A DNA stretch of 64,000 nucleotides from Geoglobus acetivorans (GCF_039641995.1 NZ_CP087714.1:1550001-1614000), one strand, 5' to 3'; shown: positions 39,526 to 47,859, counted from the first letter of the stretch. Program-made: numbers and translations. Notes: generated by a model from the letters alone, not told the origin.

Positions 39526-40638
39526 TTGAGGGTGCTGATTTCTGGTGGGGGCGTAGCGGGAAGCACATCAGCCATAAATATCGGGGAAAAGGCAGAGGTA
39601 ACGATTTTTGAGGCCAAATCAGCGTCAGGGTTTCCTGTTAAGTGTGGCGGGCTGATAAGTGAGGACTGTTACGTAGCATATTCGAAATATGTTGATGTTA
39701 AAAAGGCCCTGCTGAACAGCATTAGAGGTGCATTCTTTTTCTCTCCATCTGGAAAATACCTTGAACTTTACGGAAGCTCGGGAGCCGTGGTTATTGAAAG
39801 GAAAATCTTTGATCAGCTCCTTTTGCGAGAAGCCTCAAAATCTTCAGAGGTGGTTGTGAAATCAAAAGTTGATGCGGTCGGAGACAGGAAGGCGAGGATA
39901 ATCACGCCCGAGGGTGAGAAATTCGTTGAATTCGATGTTGTGATTGGCGCTGACGGGGCTGAAAGCAGGGTTGCGAGGGATCTGGGCTTCAGAAGACCGG
40001 AATTCTTTGTGGCTAAGCAGTACCTCATGGAGTTCGAGGTTCTTGATGAGAAGATGGTGGAGCTGTACTTTGGCAGAAGTTATTCGGATGGGTTTTTTGC
40101 GTATGCGATACCGCTGGAGGATGATCTGGCGAGGGTGGGTGTGGTTTCGAGAGGTAACCCTGACGAGCATCTCAGGGTGCTCTTGGAAAAACATCCGGAT
40201 GTGTCCCGTAGAAAAAAGGGTGGCATTCTGGAGGTCAATGCCGGAGCAATACCTGCAGGGCTGGCGGAGTTTGTCAGGGCTAATGCGGTTTTGATAGGTG
40301 ACTCAGCAGGAATGGTGAAGCCGTACACGGGTGGAGGGCTGTATTACCTGCTTAGAGCATCTGAGATCCTTGGAGAGGTTTTTCCTGATCTGCAGGCATT
40401 CAGGAAAGCATATCTGGGTGAGCTCGGGAAGGAGTACCGGACTGGAGAAAGCATTCAGAAGCTTTACGGGATTCTCAACGATTCTGAATATGATTTCCTC
40501 ATTGAAATTGGAAAGGATGTGGATTTCTCGACAATACACATGGATTCTCCATCCTCGCTTATCAGGCTGATCCCTTCTGCCCTGAAGATGATAAAGAAAC
40601 CCGCTCTGATCAAAAAAATAGCGGGTTCATTCCTTTGA
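39526..40638 (+). CDS. Geranylgeranyl-reductase-family FAD oxidoreductase
   Basis: The 370-aa flavoprotein starts with an FAD Rossmann motif (ISGGGVAGSTSAI, residues 5-17), then SGFPVKCGGLISE, the PxxCGG-type segment of digeranylgeranylglycerophospholipid reductases, GADGAESRVARDLG, and the C-terminal FAD motif VLIGDSAGMVKPYTGGGLYY. It probably reduces isoprenoid double bonds in lipids or quinones; menaquinone-type substrates are possible in Archaeoglobales. The start is a TTG 17 nt after the dehydratase homologue stop, so the two may be cotranscribed. Confidence 0.82.
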   Translation: MRVLISGGGVAGSTSAINIGEKAEVTIFEAKSASGFPVKCGGLISEDCYVAYSKYVDVKKALLNSIRGAFFFSPSGKYLELYGSSGAVVIERKIFDQLLLREASKSSEVVVKSKVDAVGDRKARIITPEGEKFVEFDVVIGADGAESRVARDLGFRRPEFFVAKQYLMEFEVLDEKMVELYFGRSYSDGFFAYAIPLEDDLARVGVVSRGNPDEHLRVLLEKHPDVSRRKKGGILEVNAGAIPAGLAEFVRANAVLIGDSAGMVKPYTGGGLYYLLRASEILGEVFPDLQAFRKAYLGELGKEYRTGESIQKLYGILNDSEYDFLIEIGKDVDFSTIHMDSPSSLIRLIPSALKMIKKPALIKKIAGSFL

Positions 40639-42519: not shown

Positions 42520-43130
42520 AGGTTCTCCTGATCGGTTTCGGAGACGTTGGAAGGGCTGTTGCCAGAATTCTGCTGTCCAGGAATATTGAGGTTACTGCAG
42601 TGGATATATCTGAAACGAGAATGGACGGCGTGAACTTCATCAAGACAGACGCACTATCCGAGGAGCTTTACGAATTTGTCGATCTTGATGAATATTCTGC
42701 GGCGATTATTGCGCTGCCCAATGACGTTGATGCACTGCTCTGCATAATGATGATCAAAAAGAAAAAAGAGGACCTGCTGGTCTTTGCCCGGTGCAACAAC
42801 CCCTCTTACAGGGAAAAGATGAGCATTGCCGGGGCAGATTACGTGGTGGATATATCCACGATCACGTCTCAGATGATCCTCTCGACGATTTTCAGGGAGG
42901 AGGCGGAGAAGAGGCTCCTCTATGAAAACATCCACGTGAGAACCTACACAGTTTCTGAGAACTCCCCACTGGTGGGGAGGAGAGTGGAAGATTTTGATGA
43001 TGTTTTAATTCTGGGTATTGAGAAAGACGGTGCCGTCAGGCATGACGGGGTTATTGAACCCGGATCTAAGATAGCGGTGGTGGGAGAGATTGAGGTTCTG
43101 AAGGCATTTGAGGAAAGGTTTATGACTTAG
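42516..43130 (+). CDS. TrkA-like RCK protein
   Basis: The 204-aa protein has an RCK_N Rossmann domain (LLIGFGDVGRAVARILL at about 4-20, DALSEELYEFVDLD, IALPNDVDALL) and an RCK_C domain (ENSPLVGRRVEDF, then IEPGSKIAVVGE). It has no membrane segment. It could assemble with the RCK ring of the channel encoded just before it, or serve a TrkH transporter elsewhere. It overlaps the bactofilin-like gene by 11 nt, tail-to-tail. Confidence 0.87.
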   Translation: MKVLLIGFGDVGRAVARILLSRNIEVTAVDISETRMDGVNFIKTDALSEELYEFVDLDEYSAAIIALPNDVDALLCIMMIKKKKEDLLVFARCNNPSYREKMSIAGADYVVDISTITSQMILSTIFREEAEKRLLYENIHVRTYTVSENSPLVGRRVEDFDDVLILGIEKDGAVRHDGVIEPGSKIAVVGEIEVLKAFEERFMT

Positions 43131-43527
43131 ACACTATTATCTTTCCCCCTTCGAGCCTTCCGATCTTTGCGTAACCCTCTATGACTATTCTGTTGGCCTT
43201 CACGAACCCTATAACGCTTCCTTCCTTTATTATAACTGAATCGCCTTTGACGAATCTGCCCCTGCACTTTGGAAAAATCAGAACGTTTCCATCGGCAACA
43301 ATCTCGTTGAACTCAGTTTTTGGCCCGATAATTGCTTTTTCGCACAGTATTGATCCCCCAACAAAGTTCCTTCCGGCAAGCTTTACCTCACTGGCCTCTA
43401 TATTGCCCCAGAAACTTGACAGGATTCCCGCAAAAACGGTTCCATCAAATCTGAGGTGCTTGTCAACTATCGAGTCTTTCCCCACTATCAGGGTTTTTCC
43501 GTCCCTGCTGAGCCTGTATTTCTTCAT
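43120..43527 (-). CDS. Bactofilin-like beta-helix protein
   Basis: The 135-aa protein consists of repeated short beta strands with regular hydrophobic and glycine positions (IVGKDSIVDKHLRFDG, IEASEVKLAGRNFVGG, VIIKEGSVIGFVKANRIVIEG, KIGRLEGGKIIVSKS). This matches the polymer-forming bactofilin right-handed beta-helix. Bacterial bactofilins form cytoskeletal scaffolds; the archaeal role is unknown. It is translationally coupled (4-nt overlap) to the PUA protein and ends within the trkA-like gene, convergent. Confidence 0.7.
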   Translation of the reverse strand: MKKYRLSRDGKTLIVGKDSIVDKHLRFDGTVFAGILSSFWGNIEASEVKLAGRNFVGGSILCEKAIIGPKTEFNEIVADGNVLIFPKCRGRFVKGDSVIIKEGSVIGFVKANRIVIEGYAKIGRLEGGKIIVSKS

Positions 43528-43991
43528 TTTCTTACCCCCTGTCTCACGTCCACCGCCACACCCCTCTGGAATTCAAGCATTTCAAAGGCAGAAAGAACGG
43601 CTTTCCCGGTGGCAAGCAGATTGTCGCTCTCATCGACCACGATAACCTCGTCGTTGGCCCTTATGGTGCTGTCAACATCGACCACATGCTTTGCAAAGAC
43701 GTTTTTGCCTTCAGCAATGAACTCCGCAACCCTGCTGTCAACCACAACTCGCAGCTGGGGATATGGAAGCAGGTCCTTCAGTCTCCTTGCACCCTCTATG
43801 CTTATGGATAGCCAGCCACTTTCGGGTTTGATTGTGGCGATTCTCCTGCCGTCATCCATAATCTGTCTGATTTTTCCGGTTTTTCTGGATACTATGAACT
43901 GGCATGATTCCGGAAAAAGCGCTTTTCCGGCACCTCTTCCGAACTGATAATCCGCCAGAACCCTAACGGTCTTGAGGTATCTATCTTCCAT
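43524..43991 (-). CDS. PUA-domain protein related to archaeosine TGT C-terminus
   Basis: The 155-aa protein matches the C-terminal region of archaeal tRNA-guanine transglycosylase: ADYQFGRGAGKALFP near residue 13, VSRKTGKIRQIMDDG, then a PUA domain (PQLRVVVDSRVAEFIAEGKNVFAKHV, DEVIVVDESDNLLATGKAVLS, FQRGVAVDVRQG). There is no TGT catalytic domain. Such stand-alone PUA proteins bind RNA, possibly tRNA. It overlaps the cis-prenyltransferase-like gene by 11 nt and the bactofilin-like gene by 4 nt. Confidence 0.88.
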   Translation of the reverse strand: MEDRYLKTVRVLADYQFGRGAGKALFPESCQFIVSRKTGKIRQIMDDGRRIATIKPESGWLSISIEGARRLKDLLPYPQLRVVVDSRVAEFIAEGKNVFAKHVVDVDSTIRANDEVIVVDESDNLLATGKAVLSAFEMLEFQRGVAVDVRQGVRK

Positions 43992-44586
43992 ATCTTCTCT
44001 CCCTCTTCTGGTATTCTCTCAGGATTCTCAAAAAGTCAATGTATCTTAAGTTTTTCCAGTCAACATCATAAAACATGTGCTCGCTGTATATGCTCTGCCA
44101 TATCAGAAAATCGTCAAGCTCGAAATTGGCCCGGAGTATAAGGTCAGGTTCGGATTTTACCCTCAATCTTTTTTCGATCTCTCTTTCATCTATTGCGTCC
44201 GGCATGACCTTTCCTTCCAGAACCTCCTCTGCCAGCTCTTTTGCAATTTGAACGAGCTCCCTCCTCCCACTCAGAGCGTTCAGAAAAACCTTTACCCTGC
44301 CCTCACCGCTTTTTTCAAGAGTCGTGTTTTCTGTAACGATACATGCCCGGTAGGGGATCCTGTATGCGAGTTTTTTCAGGTTTTCAAAACTTGCATTCCC
44401 GTTTATGGCGAACGTAATCTCTCTCACATCGAAGCTGTCACACCACCTGATAAAACTTCGGACGCCGTTAAACCCCTCGTTTATTTCCTTAAATGAGGTG
44501 ATGACCATAATGTGAGCTGGAACGTTTTTTCCTCTGACCTCTTTTTCGAGTTTTCTGATGTAGAGCCTGTAAATGAGTTCGATCAT
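43981..44586 (-). CDS. Degenerate cis-prenyltransferase (UppS-like, NgBR/Nus1-type) subunit
   Basis: The 201-aa protein aligns with undecaprenyl diphosphate synthase from end to end, for example IRWCDSFDVREITFAI at about 46-61, then PDLILRANFELDDFLIWQSIYSEHMF (two blocks, about 147-172) and IDFLRILREYQKRERRYG. However, the phosphate-binding HxxxxMDGNRRWA block is missing (HIMVITSFKE instead), and the second IPP-binding Arg and Ser are not conserved; Arg152 and the C-terminal RxG (RYG) are kept. That combination is seen in the non-catalytic NgBR/Nus1 subunits of heteromeric enzymes. A catalytic partner is not in this window. The call of degenerate member is firm; the subunit role is inferred. 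Confidence 0.75.
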   Translation of the reverse strand: MIELIYRLYIRKLEKEVRGKNVPAHIMVITSFKEINEGFNGVRSFIRWCDSFDVREITFAINGNASFENLKKLAYRIPYRACIVTENTTLEKSGEGRVKVFLNALSGRRELVQIAKELAEEVLEGKVMPDAIDEREIEKRLRVKSEPDLILRANFELDDFLIWQSIYSEHMFYDVDWKNLRYIDFLRILREYQKRERRYGR

Positions 44587-44594
44587 TTGGATAC

Positions 44595-44618
44595 CTTTTT
44601 ATTCAAACGCAAATAAAA
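44595..44618. promoter_or_regulatory. Interleaved divergent promoters, UppS-like and DUF92 genes
   Basis: CTTTTTATTC (about 44595-44604) lies about 28 nt before the DUF92 ATG at 44628. ATTTTTATTT read on the minus strand (about 44609-44618) lies about 27 nt before the UppS-like ATG at 44586. The two boxes sit within 24 bp, so transcription in one direction should hinder the other. Confidence 0.45.
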
Positions 44619-44627
44619 ATGTTCCCG

Positions 44628-45806
44628 ATGGACATAGCACTGGCGCTCCTGGCATACCTGTACCCGAAACTGGATGTGATGGGGGTTACCGGACTTGCAA
44701 TCGCACTTCTGATTTACCGGGCCTCAAAAATCCGTAAAATTGAACTCAGGGGCAACTTTGAAGAGGACTCTTTTTTCGCCATTCTGCTTTTCATATTTCT
44801 GACTTTATCTGCTCATTTCAATCTCATACCTGCCTACACTGTCGTGCCTGCGATTTTCGTGTCATCACTGAGAGTTAGAATGCCCTACTACCTTTCAATT
44901 CCGGTTTATTTCGCAATGTCTACGGTTTTTCTGAGTTATTTTCCCAACCCCTGGAATTTCACTCTGATTTTGCTGATCTCTCTGACAGTTTCACTTGCCA
45001 CGACCCTGATAATGCATGCTGCGGAGAACACATCATATTCGATCCCTCTGGTACTCACGAACCTCTCTGTGCTCATCGCATTCGAAATCTACAGGATAGA
45101 TGTCAGTGAAGTCGAGCTGATCACTGGATTTCTGCTCGCGTTCGTTCTCAGCATGATTGCCTACCGGGCCGGTGTTGCGGATGAAACAGGACTCATGGCA
45201 GCCACTATAACGGGGATGCTCATAATCGTATCTGCAAACCTGAAATTCTTTGTCATTCTTCTCCTTTTCTACGCTGTGGGGTCTGCTGTAACGAAATACC
45301 GGTATAAAGAAAAGGAACGGCTCGGAGTTGGGGAGCCTGCAGGTGGGGCGAGAGGATATGTGAATGTTTTTGCCAACAGCTTTCCGGCACTGTTTTTCTC
45401 CCTGAATTTCGGCTACCTGGACGAACGGGTGTTTGCCCTCGCATTTACCGCAAGCCTTGCAACCGCTCTTGGAGACACAATGGCCAGTGAGATAGGCAAG
45501 ATGGCTAAGAGGGTGTACCTCATCACGACGTTCGAAAGAATAACGGCGGGAGAAAGCGGAGGGATCTCGGTCAGGGGCGAAATTGCCGCTCTCACGGGAG
45601 CCGCACTGATTTCCCTTTCTGCATCACTTTTTGGAATTCTCACCCTCCAGGAGGCTTTGGTTTCCATGGTTGCAGGATTTGTCGGGGTTCATGTGGATAG
45701 CGTTCTCGGGGCAACACTGGAGAAAAAAGGTATGTTGAACAATGCAGGTGTTAACTTTTTCGCCACACTCTCCGCAGGATTGCTGTGCCTGCTAACAGTG
45801 CTGTAA
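44628..45806 (+). CDS. DUF92 (TMEM19/VTE6-like) membrane protein
   Basis: This 392-aa protein has about nine to eleven hydrophobic helices. Its C-terminal half carries the DUF92 pattern: GVGEPAGGARGYVNVFANSFPAL, SLATALGDTMASEIGK, and a loop with ITTFERITAGESGGISVRGE. Plant VTE6 of this family is a phytyl-phosphate kinase, so archaeal members are thought to act on prenyl phosphates. It lies head-to-head with the cis-prenyltransferase-like gene, which supports an isoprenoid-phosphate role. An ATG three codons upstream (44619) is also in frame. It overlaps the Lon-like gene by 56 nt, convergent. Confidence 0.83.
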   Translation: MDIALALLAYLYPKLDVMGVTGLAIALLIYRASKIRKIELRGNFEEDSFFAILLFIFLTLSAHFNLIPAYTVVPAIFVSSLRVRMPYYLSIPVYFAMSTVFLSYFPNPWNFTLILLISLTVSLATTLIMHAAENTSYSIPLVLTNLSVLIAFEIYRIDVSEVELITGFLLAFVLSMIAYRAGVADETGLMAATITGMLIIVSANLKFFVILLLFYAVGSAVTKYRYKEKERLGVGEPAGGARGYVNVFANSFPALFFSLNFGYLDERVFALAFTASLATALGDTMASEIGKMAKRVYLITTFERITAGESGGISVRGEIAALTGAALISLSASLFGILTLQEALVSMVAGFVGVHVDSVLGATLEKKGMLNNAGVNFFATLSAGLLCLLTVL

Positions 45807-47595
45807 CAGCAACGGTGCTTTCAAATCCGGGCAGGCTGAATATTTTCTCTATCTGTCTTTCCACTATTGTTGGGACTTCCGGCGTTATTTTCATTTCAGG
45901 GTGCCTGTAATTGACTTCAACAAGCTCAACGCTCTCCTTGCCACCTATAGCCACCAGTGTTTTCGCTATTCTTTCCGAGAGCTTGTAGTAGTACAGCTTC
46001 CACACCCCATCCGATGTCTCTCCAAACTCGTAATATGCATAGGGGAGCATAGGTATTGTGTATTTCTCGGCAATGCCTATTGCGTTCTCCACAGAGCTTT
46101 TTGAGGTGTTTATTTTCTCGTTGAGGTCTTTATCGCTGTTTATTGCGAGGACCTCGATGGATATTGCGGATTTGACCATGCTGTCTATTGCCGAGAAAAC
46201 CGTTCCGGCATAGTAACCGTTGTTGTAGAGTTCTTCAGCGAGCTTCAAGCTCTCGTCAGCCGAGCTATCACCGTAAAGGAGTGACTGCACTCCTCCTATT
46301 TCCCCGGCATAAACGAACAGGGACTCTGCCATGCTCAGGTAGAAATCTGCCCTCCTCTTTATTTCGTCAGGGTTCATTCTTGTATCCTCTTTAATTTCCG
46401 GCAGGAGAGACATCCAGACCTTTGCACTTTCGACCCTCTCCTTTGCAAGTGCGAGATTTGCGATGGCATCGTCCCAGTTGCTGGCAGTGGTCGCTTTTTC
46501 GAGGTAATTCTCAGCTTTTGCAAGTCTTTCCTGCGCAGCTCCAACTATCTGGAATGATGCGAGACCCATTTCGTATGACTCAGCGACCCTCTTGGTGGAT
46601 TCTATCTCGTCTCTGATGACCTTCGCCTCCAAGCTGAACGATGAATCGTCCTTTATCTTGGATCTGTATATCTCTTCCCTCATGAGTATCTTGGCAGTGA
46701 AATAGGTGCTTGTCGACGAGTAGTAATATCCCTCGCTGTAGTATTCTTCACCTTTTTTGAGTCTCTCGTCAATGGATTTTTTCGTTTCAGAATCCGCAAT
46801 CTTTTCAAATTCCTTGTACAGATCCATTGCGTCTTTTTTCATTCTTTCAGCGAGGATTTTCATCAGGTCGGCGTATTTCTCGGTTTCCAGCTTACCCTCC
46901 TCGTGCTTCAGCTCAACCCCGGCGTAGTATTTCAGTGCCTCGGTGATATTTTCGATCTCAACAACTTTGACGCCGAGTGACTGTCCGTATTTTACAAGGT
47001 CCACGGTTTTTGTCTCTGTGTTGACAATTATGAACGGGCCTTTGTGAGTTTTCTCTGTTTCAAGGACCTTTTCATATCTCTGACCCTTGGGGATCAGAAA
47101 TATCTTGGCTCCGTTCTCTGCAGCAGCCTCCAGCTTGTACTTTATCCCTCCAACCGGGCCTATGCTTCCGTCGGGATAGATCATTCCGGTCATGTAGACA
47201 TCTTTTCTGAGGGTCAGGTTTTCGAGAGCCGCAATTGTGGCGATTGTCATCACGGCCCCTGCTGAGGGCCCGCCAACGATGGTGGATTTCGCTTCAATGG
47301 TGTAGAAAAAGTCATGCTTCAGAAAATCGTTTCCTGTCAGATCGCAGGCAGTCAGAGCGGCAAGCTGTGCGCTGCCCTGCATGTCTATTTCGGTAAATGG
47401 AGAAACCGACACGAAAACCCTCCCTGTTCCGGGGGTGACTATTACGGAGATGTCTATGGTTGCACCCTTGTTCTCACCACTCACGACCGCAACTGCCTTT
47501 ATCTGCCTTTCAGTATAGTTTGCAAACTGTGCATTGGCGTATGGGGCTAACAGAATCAGAATGAGGAAAAAAGACAGAATATTTTTGACTTTCAT
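45751..47595 (-). CDS. Surface-anchored S16 Lon-like protease with PGF-CTERM-like tail
   Basis: The 614-aa protein begins with a signal peptide (residues 1-22, cleavage near ANAQ). It then has an S16 protease domain without any ATPase: the Ser-Lys dyad is Ser111 in GGPSAGAVMT and Lys154 in PVGGIKYK, 43 residues apart as in Lon. Residues about 240-580 are helical with TPR-like repeats. The C-terminus reads FSLPGFESTVAVTALLAGTAILRR then basic residues, a tripartite PGF-CTERM-like signal (PGF, hydrophobic helix, basic end) that archaeosortase A type enzymes process. The ATG at 47595 is chosen because it starts the signal peptide and lies about 26 nt from GTTATTAAAT. Confidence 0.85.
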   Translation of the reverse strand: MKVKNILSFFLILILLAPYANAQFANYTERQIKAVAVVSGENKGATIDISVIVTPGTGRVFVSVSPFTEIDMQGSAQLAALTACDLTGNDFLKHDFFYTIEAKSTIVGGPSAGAVMTIATIAALENLTLRKDVYMTGMIYPDGSIGPVGGIKYKLEAAAENGAKIFLIPKGQRYEKVLETEKTHKGPFIIVNTETKTVDLVKYGQSLGVKVVEIENITEALKYYAGVELKHEEGKLETEKYADLMKILAERMKKDAMDLYKEFEKIADSETKKSIDERLKKGEEYYSEGYYYSSTSTYFTAKILMREEIYRSKIKDDSSFSLEAKVIRDEIESTKRVAESYEMGLASFQIVGAAQERLAKAENYLEKATTASNWDDAIANLALAKERVESAKVWMSLLPEIKEDTRMNPDEIKRRADFYLSMAESLFVYAGEIGGVQSLLYGDSSADESLKLAEELYNNGYYAGTVFSAIDSMVKSAISIEVLAINSDKDLNEKINTSKSSVENAIGIAEKYTIPMLPYAYYEFGETSDGVWKLYYYKLSERIAKTLVAIGGKESVELVEVNYRHPEMKITPEVPTIVERQIEKIFSLPGFESTVAVTALLAGTAILRRVWRKS

Positions 47596-47859
47596 GTTTA
47601 TTAAGTAACAAGATATCGATTTAATAACTTTTTGACTCCCGAACCGTTCTGCTTTCTGACACGATACCTTCACCTGAGTAATTCCACTTTGGATTTGTGT
47701 GGTTTAAATGCAGCATGCCCGAGTGCATGTCCGACACATATCTGCTGAAAACACTCAGGAAATTACTAAATATGATGCGCTGAATAGCTTGTAATGTGTG
47801 GTCTCAAACAGCCCGGGGAAAGACGTTGCTGTTTAGGCTCTGAAAAATGAGGTGATGAT

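Follow-up and report, generated by a model that had tools for sequence, protein, structure and literature searches.

Does a cis-prenyltransferase homologue that has lost its catalytic loop still contribute to an enzyme, and are the genes packed around it its partners? The question is raised by a block of four genes at 43120-45806 of the 64,000-nt stretch of Geoglobus acetivorans DNA analysed here (hereafter, the window), which belongs to a genome analysed as one 1.9-Mb contig (G000). The first-pass annotation of this DNA had described a degenerate cis-prenyltransferase (hereafter, cPTL) coupled to a PUA protein (C2PUA) and a bactofilin-like protein (BacF), head-to-head with a gene of the DUF92 family. 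Open reading frame calling on the window returned these four genes, and Pfam and NCBIfam family searches assigned the corresponding domains to their products (Table 1); the genes are real, since all four are conserved and syntenic across relatives. The analysis indicates, with high confidence, that cPTL is the accessory, non-catalytic subunit of a heteromeric cis-prenyltransferase.

Reciprocal loss of active-site motifs in cPTL and UppS

In the cPTL of the window the DGNRR block and the RLSN motif are both absent and the chain terminates in RERRYGR, in agreement with the earlier description of a protein that had lost DGNRRWA and kept the C-terminal RxG. The same pattern is seen throughout the family: DGNR is found in 0 of 104 distinct cPTLs, and RxG lies within the last six residues in 103 of them, the exception ending in ERKFGK. 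The tail aligns with the RRFG of the homodimeric UppS enzymes from B. subtilis and E. coli. The predicted structure (predicted local distance difference test score, pLDDT, 86) returned 182 matches in the PDB at E<=0.001, the top ones being cis-prenyltransferases, with template modelling (TM) scores of approximately 0.65-0.74 in the top rows. The protein is 97% identical in a genome of the same genus (G001) and 49-50% identical in named Geoglobus records; the named loci were found with the cPTL alignment as query, a single-protein query of genome contigs having given no match. The cPTL search of 40 relatives matched 39, nearly all of them at two places, corresponding to cPTL and UppS.

A second, canonical uppS, which the first-pass annotation had proposed to look for, is present in the genome (G000:C1:1258252-1258920, 254 bits). 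Together with cPTL it makes exactly two PF01255 genes, so that cPTL is not the only homologue. The neighbours of this UppS gene are conserved, none of them recognisably prenyl-related, although they were not run through family searches. DGNRR is found in all 44 distinct UppS partners, and RxG is missing from the tail in 42 of these; the two with an RxG hit in the tail window owe it to RQRAGG in one case and to a C-terminal extension in the other. As read from the alignment, the canonical UppS also retains RLSN at the isopentenyl-diphosphate site. Because DGNRR, RLSN and RxG are distributed reciprocally, UppS and cPTL divide between them features that both subunits of a homodimer possess. Every one of the 118 genomes sampled across the phylum (completeness >=95%) had two or more PF01255 matches, most of them exactly two; where an additional short full-length copy occurs, as in some genomes, its size is similar to that of the known MM_0014 class. 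With the canonical partner found, the motifs lost reciprocally and the pairing universal in the phylum sample, the idea of an accessory half of a heteromeric enzyme is strongly supported. Judged by the reciprocal-motif test and the 118 genomes, the heteromeric form is probably universal in the phylum.

Several points weigh against this reading. The UppS gene lies 335 kb from cPTL in this genome, and for this species the physical complex and its activity are what we infer. Genome G036 (93% complete; locus L073) has a UppS without RxG, and no cPTL was found there. Since G040, from the same family, has two PF01255 genes, the exception is probably explained most simply by an assembly gap.

A proposed shared active site and its known counterparts

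In the proposed mechanism, UppS would supply the DGNRR diphosphate loop and most of the substrate-binding residues, its own C-terminal RxG having been lost, and cPTL, without the diphosphate loop, would complete the UppS active site by contributing its C-terminal RRYG from the other side of the dimer interface. This contribution is modelled on the human enzyme, in which the RxG of NgBR reaches over the interface into the active site of DHDDS (PMC7573591). That UppS and cPTL would together form a polyprenyl-diphosphate synthase is strongly supported by the sequence comparisons. After dephosphorylation and partial saturation, the polyprenyl diphosphate would give the dolichol phosphate sugar carrier, the long lipid on which archaea build up their protein sugars. 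DUF92, expressed divergently from the short spacer that it has in common with cPTL, probably acts in the same pathway by phosphorylating either a polyprenol or a polyprenyl phosphate. The chain length of the product and the chemistry of DUF92 are likewise what we infer; dolichol phosphates of C55-C65 are described for Archaeoglobus fulgidus (PMC10821996).

The window also encodes a flavoprotein of the geranylgeranyl-reductase family, whose gene precedes an mtd-like one and occurs at this locus mainly within the genus; a relation to dolichol or prenyl saturation is possible but unproven.

Heteromeric enzymes of this type are not new to the archaea. A study by Sompiyachoke in J Biochem in 2022 is said to have found that Af1219/Af0707 of A. 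fulgidus needs both subunits and is a probable heterotetramer. In genome G101, which is consistent with A. fulgidus, the positions of the UppS gene (1,089.7 kb) and the cPTL gene (638.9 kb) correspond proportionally to AF1219 and AF0707, and we take them to be these genes, the tags being assumed from position. G101 carries the same BacF-C2PUA-cPTL and DUF92 arrangement as the window, and its cPTL is approximately 44% identical to the window protein. In Methanosarcina mazei, MM_0618/MM_1083 is a heteromeric cis-prenyltransferase making glycosyl-carrier lipids, according to the account of Emi 2019 cited in PMC8131916. It resembles the present pair in comprising two PF01255 paralogues and in its glycosyl carrier lipid, and the cPTL family is also represented at loci of the Methanosarcinaceae; it differs in genus, and DUF92 is not adjacent to cPTL in loci of the Methanolobus type.

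The human NgBR (NUS1)/DHDDS enzyme similarly combines an inactive subunit bearing a C-terminal RxG with an active subunit bearing the catalytic loop, although no N-terminal membrane region like that of NgBR is evident in the 201-residue cPTL. The cPTL profile matches human NUS1 at 1.5e-14 with bacterial UppS scoring higher, and cPTL is therefore not identified as the NgBR/NUS1 orthologue by closest relationship. For the archaeal UppS profile the best PDB match is human DHDDS (1.5e-72; 247 bits, versus 227 for the best bacterial match). The cPTL and archaeal UppS profiles match one another very strongly (E 1.3e-47), which is compatible with an origin of the pair by duplication within the archaea.

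Linkage to DUF92

The link to DUF92 that had been claimed from the window is real and deep. Of 37 loci from whole genomes, 31 have the gene head-to-head with cPTL, as do 60 of 80 named loci, some loci being common to both sets; the spacer is about 10-60 bp in most relatives, and the linkage spans Archaeoglobi, Methanoperedens, Methanocellales and Methanothrix. UppS occurs in the same stretch as cPTL in 7 of the whole-genome and 14 of the named loci. The linkage of both genes is far above chance for single genes among some two thousand. Two acidic motifs are kept in the DUF92 homologues, DTxxSE in 76 of 78 and DSxxGA in 75 of 78. Family membership and linkage together make the protein a candidate polyprenol or polyprenyl-phosphate kinase; for kinase activity within the family, our only example is plant VTE6. 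An internal duplication was considered, and nothing was found in a profile comparison of the two halves (E 0.078).

The association has been published before: DUF92 (arCOG02245) was linked to uppS, and a kinase step in isoprenoid metabolism was proposed (Makarova 2015, PMC5898192). The genomic context given there is alike in that DUF92 lies beside a PF01255 gene, but the passage concerned does not separate accessory from catalytic PF01255 genes, whereas the tightly linked gene in the present case is that of the accessory subunit. The paper also reports an N-terminal Sec59-like domain for a Methanosarcina member of the family; Pfam returned no domain in the N-terminal part of the window DUF92.

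Downstream, the 3' end of DUF92 is overlapped by 56 bp by the 3' end of a gene on the opposite strand (45751-47673, minus), whose product combines a signal-like N-terminus with an S16 protease domain of the Lon type that lacks the AAA+ part, and matches PGF-CTERM weakly. Most Archaeoglobaceae loci conserve this gene next to DUF92.

The PUA protein and the bactofilin-like protein

The label of PUA protein given to C2PUA was correct as far as the PUA domain is concerned; the TGT_C2 domain had been missed. Residues 3-154 align over their full length with the tRNA-guanine transglycosylase (TGT) of Pyrococcus (PDB code: 1iq8; residues 434-582) at E 2e-50. Because C2PUA aligns in this way and is the sole TGT_C2 protein in the genome, while the genome's TgtA (476 aa) has neither C2 nor PUA, it is the detached C-terminal RNA-binding half of the archaeosine TGT, TgtA. 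It is encoded some 730 kb from tgtA/arcS, and lies in the cPTL operon throughout Archaeoglobi. A TgtA made of two polypeptides is known in Methanosarcina acetivorans (Nomura 2013, cited in PMC11298593), which accounts for the PUA protein; unlike the split enzyme as cited there, the C2-PUA half here sits inside the cPTL operon. The reading as a dedicated prenyl partner was rejected on the grounds of this identity, and C2PUA is probably an operon neighbour outside the prenyl pathway.

A third TGT gene (G000:C1:1351642-1352796; L095:1357-2664) encodes 435 aa with PF01702 over nearly the whole length (410 bits). It lacks the archaeal C-terminal domains and is possibly a bacterial-type queuine TGT; the normal archaeosine TgtA/ArcS pair is elsewhere in the genome.

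The assignment of BacF is less sharply defined by its profile, PF04519 matching 19 of 21 orthologues with the window protein just over the cut-off. The model is all-beta (pLDDT 96), and bactofilins are among its best PDB folds in Foldseek, none of them significant. Bacterial bactofilins position cell-wall enzymes, and by analogy a bactofilin-like polymer co-translated with cPTL might, in Archaeoglobaceae, organise the heteromeric enzyme at the membrane along with DUF92, a suggestion that we consider very doubtful.

The wider proposal, a single polyprenyl-phosphate module made up of the entire block, with BacF as a membrane scaffold for DUF92 and the heteromeric enzyme and with C2PUA as a dedicated partner, also seems very unlikely. 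A beta-helix of this type is a plausible scaffold, and the three overlapping genes keep their order in most Archaeoglobaceae genomes, an order that selection for being expressed together may have maintained or that may simply have been inherited. Against this stand the identity of C2PUA as half of TgtA and the distribution of both genes, which join the cPTL operon only in Archaeoglobi. Outside this group their homologues lie far from cPTL, as in G029, G035 and G038 (in the last, cPTL, BacF and C2PUA are at 219.8, 346.7 and 459.9 kb, respectively), and in G017, G024 and G025 C2PUA is still in place whereas BacF has already lost its linkage. A general role of the bactofilin as partner of cPTL was accordingly rejected outside Archaeoglobi, and the new partners suggested by the first-pass annotation do not stand.

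Other roles for cPTL

Conceivably, cPTL is not an obligate enzyme subunit but acts as a regulator or, as a homodimer, in a different capacity. In an alignment of 37 cPTLs, however, R195, R197 and G200 are among the invariant residues, and this, with the matching loss of RxG in UppS, is what obligate complementation of an active site predicts; the universal pairing with UppS argues in the same direction, and we judge such a role highly improbable. The loss of the P-loop and the short N-terminal half might suggest a decaying pseudoenzyme, but the open frame and the conservation across the phylum (15 invariant columns at 34% mean identity in the same alignment) already refute decay, which is barely conceivable.

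Locus layout and neighbouring genes

The accessory subunit gene is transcribed first on the minus strand, followed by C2PUA and BacF, with overlaps of 11 bp (cPTL/C2PUA) and 4 bp (C2PUA/BacF). Beyond BacF, the segment 41560-43130 encodes a potassium-channel protein with TrkA-N/C domains and then, with a 4-bp overlap, a second TrkA-like protein, whose gene converges with that of BacF, the two 3' ends overlapping by 11 bp.

Table 1. Features of the cPTL locus and the flavoprotein gene, in window coordinates
Feature	Coordinates	Strand	Product and family match
cPTL, degenerate cis-prenyltransferase	43981-44586	-	201 aa; PF01255 1.4e-19, only profile positions 113-219 matched
C2PUA, C2-PUA protein	43524-43991	-	155 aa; TGT_C2 1.4e-30 and PUA 9.8e-21
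BacF, bactofilin-like beta-helix protein	43120-43527	-	135 aa; PF04519 28.6 bits versus cut-off 27.9
DUF92/TIGR00297 integral membrane protein	44619-45806	+	395 aa; PF01940 9.5e-56; TIGR00297 238 bits, cut-off 206
Divergent intergenic spacer common to cPTL and DUF92	44587-44618	.	32 bp
Geranylgeranyl-reductase-family flavoprotein	39526-40638	+	TIGR02032 166.7 bits, cut-off 158.8

Implications

The interpretation first placed on this locus was right in its main part, the accessory half and the link to DUF92, and failed in the new partners; the enzyme type and the DUF92 link were already known. What the analysis adds is the phylum-wide test of reciprocal motifs, applied to a heteromeric form so far described for one or two archaea, and the identity of the PUA protein, by which the detached half of the archaeosine TGT is placed. 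The role of cPTL is thereby settled for a gene that annotation would label a degenerate UppS. The divergent DUF92-cPTL pair, in turn, makes it testable which kinase step of archaeal dolichol-phosphate metabolism DUF92 performs.
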